Below, in pieces: positions 1 to 2,255 of a DNA stretch of 33,043 nt. Numbering within the stretch: position 1 is the stretch's first letter; every line of letters begins with the position of its first letter. The notes beneath the pieces were generated by a model. The model did no database searches. It had not been told where the DNA came from and saw only the letters and a list, made by a program, of their open reading frames with translations. The stretch covers positions 1 to 33,043 of the forward strand of contig CACOXL010000006.1 of the NCBI GenBank assembly GCA_902631135.1, in the 5' to 3' direction. Made by a program: the position numbers and the translations under genes. Source of the stretch: an uncultured Pelagibacteraceae bacterium (GTDB lineage Bacteria > Pseudomonadota > Alphaproteobacteria > Pelagibacterales > Pelagibacteraceae).

Positions 1-685
1 TTAATTGAACTCTTAGTTCTTTAGATATTTGTGCGGTAGACCAACCACATATCTTAACAAATATGTTCGGACCTACTGTGGATCCTACACACATGTGAGT
101 ATTGTCACAATTTGAAACCCAATATCTCATACACTCACTTACTGCATCAACTAAAGTTTGACTTCCAGAATACACAGGTACTATTTCTGCTCCATTTTTT
201 TTCATAGCTATAACGTTTGGTCTTTGCCTTTTGATATCTTTAGCTCCCATAAAAATTTTACATTTAAGTCCAAATTTTTTAGCTGCCATACTTAACATTT
301 TACCCGCATAGCCTGCACCAGTGTCTCCAACGATATATTTTTTTCCTAAACTTTTTGCAATTAGGCAGTGAACAGTTGCTCCATAAATTTTGTGGGCACC
401 GCCATTTGCTTCTGAAACTATTTTAGCCCAAATTTGAGCACCACCTAAGTGATTTGATAAGTTCTCTAACTTTATTAATGATGTTGGAGAACCAATATAA
501 TTTTTAAAATAAAAATCTTTTTTTTTAATGAATTTTTTATCTTTCCTTAATTTTTCAAATGTATTTGTTAAATCTTCTACAGGTTTTTTTAGTGTTTCAG
601 GAATGTAACTTCCACCAAATTTACCACCCCAAAAACCATGTTTATCATGCTGATCAATTAAAGGAACATTTTTTTTAAGCTTCAT
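1..685 (-). CDS. trpB: Divergent tryptophan synthase beta chain-like protein (N-terminal part, continues beyond window start)
   Basis: Manual translation from ATG at 685: MKLKKNVPLIDQHDKHGFWGGKFGGSYIPETLKKPVEDL...NGGAHKIYG...DTGAGYAGK...MGAKDIKRQRPNVIAMKKNGAEIVPVYSGSQTLVDAV...; overlaps trpF; GGAHK PLP lysine motif present. Confidence 0.8.
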   Translation of the reverse strand, partial: MKLKKNVPLIDQHDKHGFWGGKFGGSYIPETLKKPVEDLTNTFEKLRKDKKFIKKKDFYFKNYIGSPTSLIKLENLSNHLGGAQIWAKIVSEANGGAHKIYGATVHCLIAKSLGKKYIVGDTGAGYAGKMLSMAAKKFGLKCKIFMGAKDIKRQRPNVIAMKKNGAEIVPVYSGSQTLVDAVSECMRYWVSNCDNTHMCVGSTVGPNIFVKICGWSTAQISKELRVQL

Positions 686-1304
686 ATTTCAAGTTTTTAA
701 CATTGTTTAAGAAAATTTCTATTTTGGAAATATCTTTTAATCCAGCAGTTTCTAGCCCACCAGATATATCAATAATATCTGCTATTTTTTTATAATTTTC
801 AAGATCGTCATTCATTTGAATATTTCCAGCCACCATTATCTCTTTATTTAGATTAAGATTTTTAATGAAATTATGATTGAATGACATACTTTTTTCATAC
901 CCTTTACTATCGAATAAATAAATATCAGTTGAGTCTAAATAAAATTGGTATTTATCAACATCATTTTTATTTTCTACAGTAATTGCAGTGATTATTTTTT
1001 TCTTATATTTTTTTTTTATAGATCTAATTTTTTCAGGATTGCAATTATAAAGCTGGTAATAATCAAATGGTAAATCTTTAATTTCCTCAAGTATATTGTG
1101 ATTGGGATTTACAAGTACCGCTACAAACTGAGTATTTTTTTTATCTATTTTTAATAATTCTTTTAGTTTTTCTAAATTAACATATCTCTTAGATTTAGAA
1201 TAATTGACAATAAATCCAACAAATTGAGGTGGGTAAGAGTGATTTATCAAATAATTTAATGTTTTAGAGTCGGAAACTCCACAAATTTTAGACCTAAGAG
1301 TCAT
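675..1304 (-). CDS. trpF: Phosphoribosylanthranilate isomerase
   Basis: KICGV N-terminus, YQLY, DIYLFDSKG, IDISGGLETAGLKD motifs; next to trpB. Confidence 0.88.
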   Translation of the reverse strand: MTLRSKICGVSDSKTLNYLINHSYPPQFVGFIVNYSKSKRYVNLEKLKELLKIDKKNTQFVAVLVNPNHNILEEIKDLPFDYYQLYNCNPEKIRSIKKKYKKKIITAITVENKNDVDKYQFYLDSTDIYLFDSKGYEKSMSFNHNFIKNLNLNKEIMVAGNIQMNDDLENYKKIADIIDISGGLETAGLKDISKIEIFLNNVKNLKYEA

Positions 1305-1975
1305 TGTTTTAAATGATCAATTAATCTATTCATATTTTTTTTGATATTACCTTTTGTTATAGGTCTTCCTATTACAAGCCAATTGCTCCCATTTTTAAAA
1401 GCTTCTTTTGGTGTTAAAGTTCTTTTTTGATCATAATTTTTTGAATTAAATCTTATTCCTGGAGTAATAATTTCTTTTTTAAATACTTTTTTAACTATAT
1501 TAACTTCTTGAGCACTACAAACTATTGCATCTAATTTGGCTTTTGAAGCAAGCTTTGCCTGGAGTAAAACTAGTTTTTTGACATCTTTATTAAATCCGAT
1601 TTGTTTTAAAGCTTTGTTGTCAAGAGATGTTAATATTGTTACCCCAACCAGTTTTATTCTACCAGATACTTTTTTTGCAGATGATAAAGCTTTCAGTCCT
1701 GAGCTAATATGTATTGTTAAATAATTTATTTTTAAATCTCTAATTGCTCTTATAGCAGAAATACATGTATTTGGGATATCATGCAGTTTTAAATCTGCGA
1801 AGATTATTTTATTCTTTAATTTTGATATAAATTGTCTTCCTTTTTTAGAATTTAAAAATTCTAGTCCAAACTTGTAACCTATTTTAAGTTTTGAATTTTC
1901 AGTTTTTTTAATGATTTCTCTTATTTTTAAAATGTTGGTGCTATCACAGGCAACAAATATTTTATTCTTTTTCAT
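1301..1975 (-). CDS. pyrF: Orotidine 5'-phosphate decarboxylase
   Basis: FADLKLHDIPNT motif, VGVTILTS, ITPGIR, GRPIT motifs. Confidence 0.95.
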   Translation of the reverse strand: MKKNKIFVACDSTNILKIREIIKKTENSKLKIGYKFGLEFLNSKKGRQFISKLKNKIIFADLKLHDIPNTCISAIRAIRDLKINYLTIHISSGLKALSSAKKVSGRIKLVGVTILTSLDNKALKQIGFNKDVKKLVLLQAKLASKAKLDAIVCSAQEVNIVKKVFKKEIITPGIRFNSKNYDQKRTLTPKEAFKNGSNWLVIGRPITKGNIKKNMNRLIDHLKQ

Positions 1976-2255
1976 TATTTAATTTTTTAAACAACTCTTT
2001 AGACATTTTAAAGTGAATTGTTTTTTTTTCTGGTGTATTAACTTTTTCACCAGTTTTTGGATTTCTTGAAATCCTTGCTTTTTGTGTATTTGTAAAAAAA
2101 ACACCAAATGTTCTTAATTCTACTCTTTCACCTCTTTTAAGAGTTTTTTTGATTTCATCTAAAATTATTTTTGAAACTTTTTCTAAATCTTTTTTTAAAA
2201 AATTAGGATAATTTTTTGAAAGTTGTTTGATAAGCTTTGATTTTACAATAGCCAA
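1962..2255 (-). CDS. ihfB: Integration host factor beta / HU-family DNA-binding protein
   Basis: 97 aa; VELRTFGVFF...ARISRNPKTGEKVNTPEKKTIHFKMSKEL; directly downstream of rpsA as in many Proteobacteria. Confidence 0.93.
   Translation of the reverse strand: MAIVKSKLIKQLSKNYPNFLKKDLEKVSKIILDEIKKTLKRGERVELRTFGVFFTNTQKARISRNPKTGEKVNTPEKKTIHFKMSKELFKKLNNEKE

Follow-up and report, generated by a model that had tools for sequence, protein, structure and literature searches.

TrpB of SAR11 bacteria: a probable sole, working tryptophan synthase beta subunit with a rebuilt active site

The gene at the start of a 33,043-nucleotide stretch of DNA from an uncultured Pelagibacteraceae bacterium (the window, meaning the whole stretch analysed) encodes part of a tryptophan synthase beta subunit (TrpB) in which several residues that hardly vary in other bacteria are replaced. 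Judged from sequence comparisons, it is most probably (roughly 0.87) the sole, working beta subunit of a SAR11 cell, with a rebuilt active site matched to its own TrpA. The strict TrpB signature (Glu109 and the GAGQHG loop) is absent from the protein; its ancestry, fold, operon and single copy place it with TrpB1, as a distinct branch.

The trpB reading frame runs on the reverse strand from 685 to 2, with an ATG start and 228 stop-free codons, and pyrF and an IHF-type gene are found upstream of trpB and trpF, an arrangement usual for SAR11. The features of this region are as follows:

2-685, minus strand: trpB, the 5' 228 codons (of about 410) of a SAR11-type tryptophan synthase beta subunit (open reading frame, profile and PDB matches)
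56-73, minus strand: GPNIFV, which is GPHPYP elsewhere (sequence, alignment)
149-151, minus strand: Val replacing beta-Lys167, the partner of alpha-Asp56 (alignment)
302-325, minus strand: DTGAGYAG, the substrate-carboxylate loop with E109D, Q114Y and H115A (sequence, alignment)
389-397, minus strand: AHK, whose Lys forms the Schiff base (Lys87 of E. coli); SEANGG stands before it in the place of LNHTG (alignment to E. coli TrpB)
675-1304, minus strand: trpF, phosphoribosylanthranilate isomerase, overlapping trpB (profile search)
1301-1975, minus strand: pyrF, orotidine-5'-phosphate decarboxylase (profile search)
1962-2255, minus strand: feature placed by gene order in L010 and related loci and by PMC2395257

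The first base of the window is also that of its contig (G000:C6:1), which belongs to a fragmentary, 55%-complete genome, and this position together with the open frame indicates that trpB is truncated, not frameshifted. As the contig stops inside the gene, the window contains neither the PLP phosphate loop nor trpA, and both were read in relatives. The fragment matched the NCBIfam trpB model TIGR00263 (E 1e-62) and PDB TrpB chains (E down to 3e-51). The altered motifs pointed out in the preliminary description were all recovered, namely AKIVSEANGGAHKIYG around AHK (397 to 389), DTGAGYAG (325 to 302) and GPNIFV (73 to 56). Comparison with the closest relative (L004, 93% identity) gave a dN/dS of about 0.04, synonymous sites being almost saturated, which argues for a functional protein under strong purifying selection and against a decaying copy.

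Searching bacterial and archaeal genomes yielded at least 581 related stretches, from which 80 loci were kept, all of them Pelagibacterales records with 85-93% identity. Full-length proteins of this SAR11 type have about 410 residues, occur also in single-contig genomes, and align from residue 19 to residue 405 with TrpB crystal structures (E down to 6e-99). Two of them scored 393.2 (L004) and 388.3 bits (L010) against TIGR00263, on either side of its curated cut-off of 392.45 bits. This cut-off also divides the order, 58 of 117 Pelagibacterales genomes lying above it, so that automatic annotation may miss many trpB genes and label some genomes tryptophan auxotrophs. Outside Pelagibacterales, no protein above 45% identity was found among 385 genomes of the class, and the best 25 TrpBs from these genomes all carried ETGAGQHG.

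The active sites of the 80 SAR11-type loci were compared with those of 25 canonical alphaproteobacterial TrpBs, using E. coli TrpB numbering. Ten positions were changed in 80/80 SAR11-type loci (E109D, Q114Y, H115A, R148A, K167V, Y186M, H195N, P196I, P198V and R202G), and four more in all 79 loci that were long enough (N236S, G310S, R379D and G380A), whereas E109, Q114, H115, K167, H195, N236 and R379 were present in 25/25 of the canonical proteins. Cys377 instead of Ser, likewise found in 79/79 long enough loci, is normal for Alphaproteobacteria (23/25). DTGAG was present in each of the 80 close Pelagibacterales loci and the canonical GAGQHG loop in none; further loops with Asp109 were DTGAGMFG, DTGAGYNG, DTGAGMAG, DTGAGMNG and DTGAGASG. 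The PLP Schiff-base lysine in (G)AHK was conserved in all 80 loci, and H86, K87, R141, N145, G232-S235, D305 and E350 were retained in all full-length rows, T110-G113 also being kept in the SAR11 type. The PLP phosphate loop, which the preliminary description proposed to look for beyond the window, was present in full-length relatives as far as GGGS is concerned, but it reads GGGSSA (101/111 loci, reflecting N236S) and not the canonical GGGSNA. A natural Q114M with Glu109 kept (ETGAGMHG) was seen in 8 of the 30 TrpBs of a phylum-level search (L166-L195). An AlphaFold2 model based on 47 SAR11-type TrpBs (pLDDT 50, pTM 0.47) was too poor for checking the active site.

Asp109 retains a carboxylate, one CH2 shorter than that of Glu109, and the Salmonella E109D enzyme of Brzovic et al. 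(1992) is reportedly strongly impaired. In the published scheme, the indole N-H is held by Glu109, the closed state has Gln114 bonded to Asn145 and Arg148 and a salt bridge between Arg141 and Asp305, and changes of Gln114 derail the reaction (PMC9512447). Read against these roles, the SAR11 type has changed the indole N-H carboxylate conservatively and lost two of the three corners of the Gln114 network, while keeping Arg141-Asp305; altered kinetics are plausible from the published work on E109 and Q114. In the proposed mechanism, PLP on Lys87 would take up L-serine and, after beta-elimination to the aminoacrylate, add the indole supplied by TrpA. Asp109 would replace Glu109 as the carboxylate holding the indole N-H, the rebuilt loop GAGYAG and Ala148 would substitute for the Gln114-Asn145-Arg148 hydrogen-bond network, and the Arg141-Asp305 salt bridge of the closed state is retained.

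The partner subunit showed a parallel change. The preliminary description suggested seeking trpA past the window start, and in relatives it directly follows trpB, the order trpF-trpB-trpA being found in nearly all related loci read with their neighbours (in G090 no trpF was recognised). The catalytic residues E49, D60 and T183 were kept in 79/79 SAR11-type TrpAs. In M. tuberculosis crystal structures alphaAsp64 contacts betaLys181 (PMC6608616); the former is stated there to correspond to Salmonella alpha56, and we infer that the latter corresponds to beta167. The alpha56/beta167 pairs of 133 loci were D-K (28), E-K (6), T-V (88), A-V (6), C-V (4) and T-L (1), that is, an acidic alpha56 occurred only with beta167 Lys and an uncharged one only with Val or Leu, with no mixed pair. 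This covariation is supporting, not conclusive, as the independent changes are few (essentially the SAR11-type stem and G082). In SAR11 an uncharged T/V pair takes the place of the alphaD56-betaK167 contact, suggesting a beta subunit tuned to its own TrpA.

Each of 10 near-complete Pelagibacterales genomes carried three or four members of the PALP family (PF00291), made up of one or two strong matches of another kind, the locus trpB and a threonine-synthase-like match; no second TrpB was found among the PALP-family genes of these genomes, and trpC (indole-glycerol-phosphate synthase family) was present in 10/10. A single copy argues for tryptophan formation from indole and serine. Kagan et al. 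2008 (PMC2395257) state that there is only one trpB in HTCC1062 and that it must for this reason serve tryptophan synthesis. Besides the trpB fragment, the window's own genome has one threonine-synthase-like and one dehydratase-like PALP gene, the family match of the latter (L001, G000:C11:6775-7671) containing an in-frame TGA, for which a frameshift, an error or a short C-terminus are candidate explanations. In G018 an additional TrpB2-like gene (ETGAGQWG; L128 5479-6903; 140 bits against TIGR00263) lies away from the trp locus. Three genomes that are 94-96% complete (G078, G101 and G106) gave only weak, dehydratase-family-like matches to the TrpB model (E no better than 2.6e-7); these genomes may be tryptophan auxotrophs, carry a type that was not recognised, or have a gap in the assembly at this locus.

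With TrpB1 (TIGR00263; Salmonella and E. coli) the SAR11 protein shares the fold, length, PLP lysine, GGGS loop, Arg141-Asp305, Glu350, trpA partner and operon, differing in E109D, Q114Y, H115A, R148A, K167V, N236S, R379D and GPNIFV for GPHPYP, and it is at most 45% identical to alphaproteobacterial TrpBs outside the order. TrpB2 (TIGR01415 / COG1350) belongs to the same superfamily, and a TrpB2 identity was rejected on scores of 92 (L004) and 89 bits (L010) against a cut-off of 518.85. A rival reading, raised in the preliminary description, is a TrpB-fold enzyme that stayed in the trp operon but acts on another substrate; its main substrate would be a different amino-acid donor or a nucleophile other than indole. 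The changes do fall exactly at the substrate-carboxylate and indole-activating residues. Moreover, TrpB becomes a tyrosine synthase when Gly, Ala or Ser takes the place of the equivalent Glu (Almhjell 2024, as cited in PMC12727527). Unlike that engineered TmTyrS, however, SAR11 has a conservative Asp that keeps the carboxylate. The protein also covaries with TrpA and is the sole TrpB in genomes keeping trpC and trpA, which a different substrate would leave without tryptophan synthesis. This reading was accordingly left without support and is improbable.

Still less probable is a pseudoenzyme that merely activates TrpA to release indole, like the plant TSB-like proteins, in which the catalytic Glu is likewise replaced (PMC12727527). 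The residue found there is Ala, Ser or Pro, with Glu at the position of Asp305, whereas SAR11 keeps an acidic D109 and D305; furthermore, TSB-like proteins coexist with a true TSB, and no true TrpB was found beside the SAR11 gene in the 10 near-complete genomes. Membership of the TSB-like class was rejected on these grounds. As to a sequencing error, chimera or binning artefact, a gene at the contig end of such an incomplete assembly might invite it, but 80 independent records, and single-contig genomes as well, carry this sequence type at the corresponding locus. D109, Y114, A115 and V167 are identical in 80/80 loci of other genomes and so are no sequencing error, and the frame is open from its ATG. 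The artefact, frameshift included, which the preliminary description had kept in mind, is thereby refuted and its probability negligible.

In a TrpB tree of 56 rows (mixture model), the SAR11 type formed one Pelagibacterales clade (support 100/100), whose stem measured 1.8 changes per site. This branch and its very long stem, the trp operon and the status of sole TrpB in 10 genomes bear out the earlier idea of a lineage-specific TrpB. Placement within ordinary SAR11 TrpB, named in the preliminary description as part of a refuting outcome, does hold for the tree, but the altered motifs are common to every SAR11-type TrpB. Ordinary TrpBs nested among Alphaproteobacteria were found in three Pelagibacterales (G006, G093 and G100); vertical descent of the SAR11 type from these canonical forms was rejected, a single clade having a p-AU of 0.0023, subject to a long-branch caveat. 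A second divergent group (99/97) united G027/G085 (ETGAGAHL) with G026/G024/G103 (ESGAGQHY/F), and a clade of the SAR11 type with this G026/G027 group was not rejected (p 0.43). The TrpB of G082 (ETGASMNA) had an extremely long branch. The TrpA tree recovered the same groups. A DTGAG codon pattern was present in 143 of 155 Pelagibacterales genomes (90% completeness filter, G000 included), which is an upper estimate since at least one match (G103) lies outside trpB; the reversed pattern, used as control, matched twice. The 12 genomes without it include four known E109 types (G006, G024, G026 and G082).

In some relatives trpB and trpA were replaced in place as a pair by ESGAGQHY/F, ETGAGAHL, ETGASMNA or canonical types, the flanks remaining SAR11-like and the replacement sometimes including accD-folC. 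The replaced pairs and the divergent genes to their right are located as follows:

Replaced trpB-trpA pairs (against L131, L010 and L125): L114 5786-7799; L115 5337-7341; L116 6041-8057; L120 6119-8195; L124 5838-7857
Divergent accD/folC: L118 2795-5093; L120 8171-10403; L115 3115-5346

A tree of flank proteins (aroA, rpsA, ihf and pyrF; 24 loci) scattered the types, its five states requiring seven changes as a raw count. The clearest case is G024, grouped with G011 at 100/100 in this tree. Their identities are 79% (aroA), 85% (cmk), 90% (rpsA), 86% (ihf), 90% (pyrF) and 73% (trpF), then 37% (trpB), 31% (trpA), 48% (accD), 31% (folC) and 65% (trx). The flanks of G024 from aroA to trpF are 53-67% identical to those of G103, yet trpB and trpA reach 95 and 80%. 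The 100%-complete, one-contig genome G026 compared with L010 gave 40% (trpB), 30% (trpA) and 85% (accD), and G006 compared with G027 gave 84% (rpsA), 51% (trpB), 42% (trpA) and 95% (trx). These profiles indicate that trpB and trpA move together, with variable right-hand edges. The allosteric bridge differs in the non-SAR11 types, being Q305 with R141 in G026/G024/G103 and L141/N305 in G027/G085.

To the right of trpA, accD and folC are also strongly divergent (folC about 30% identity) and do not always match the trpBA type; the accD-folC region is a local replacement hot spot. No relative of the SAR11 or G082 types was found in viral contigs, which gives no sign of viral carriage, and for the G026/G024/G103 type 249 genomes of the phylum revealed no source from outside, the best match having 51% identity. 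A bolder and rather doubtful proposal is that Pelagibacterales tryptophan synthase is under unusual selection, with repeated swaps of the pair in place between five or more divergent types whose catalytic and allosteric residues are not the same (D109 or E109; R141-D305, Q305 or L141/N305). The exchanges might perhaps allow escape from an environmental inhibitor or a change in substrate use, and some types might thus follow a non-textbook kinetic or allosteric scheme.

The SAR11 (Pelagibacter) trpB cluster and its single copy have been known since 2008, Kagan et al. (PMC2395257) dealing with the same organism group, gene order and copy number. The sections consulted hold no description of the active-site residues, the covariation with TrpA or the other Pelagibacterales types, and no published account of the SAR11 TrpB active-site changes was found in the literature searched. 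As far as that literature shows, the new points are the remodelling of the site, the covariation of this site with TrpA and the replacement of the pair in place. In this model allosteric enzyme, Glu109 and the GAGQHG loop are regarded as almost invariant; a lineage that does without them in an apparently essential protein, and that is one of the most abundant groups of bacteria in the ocean, would show that another solution is compatible with the chemistry. Asp109, the Arg141-Asp305 bridge lost in other types and the altered alpha-beta contact are natural experiments for tests of allostery and for biocatalyst design, and the paired exchange of trpB and trpA clearly illustrates how a tightly coupled enzyme complex moves as one unit.
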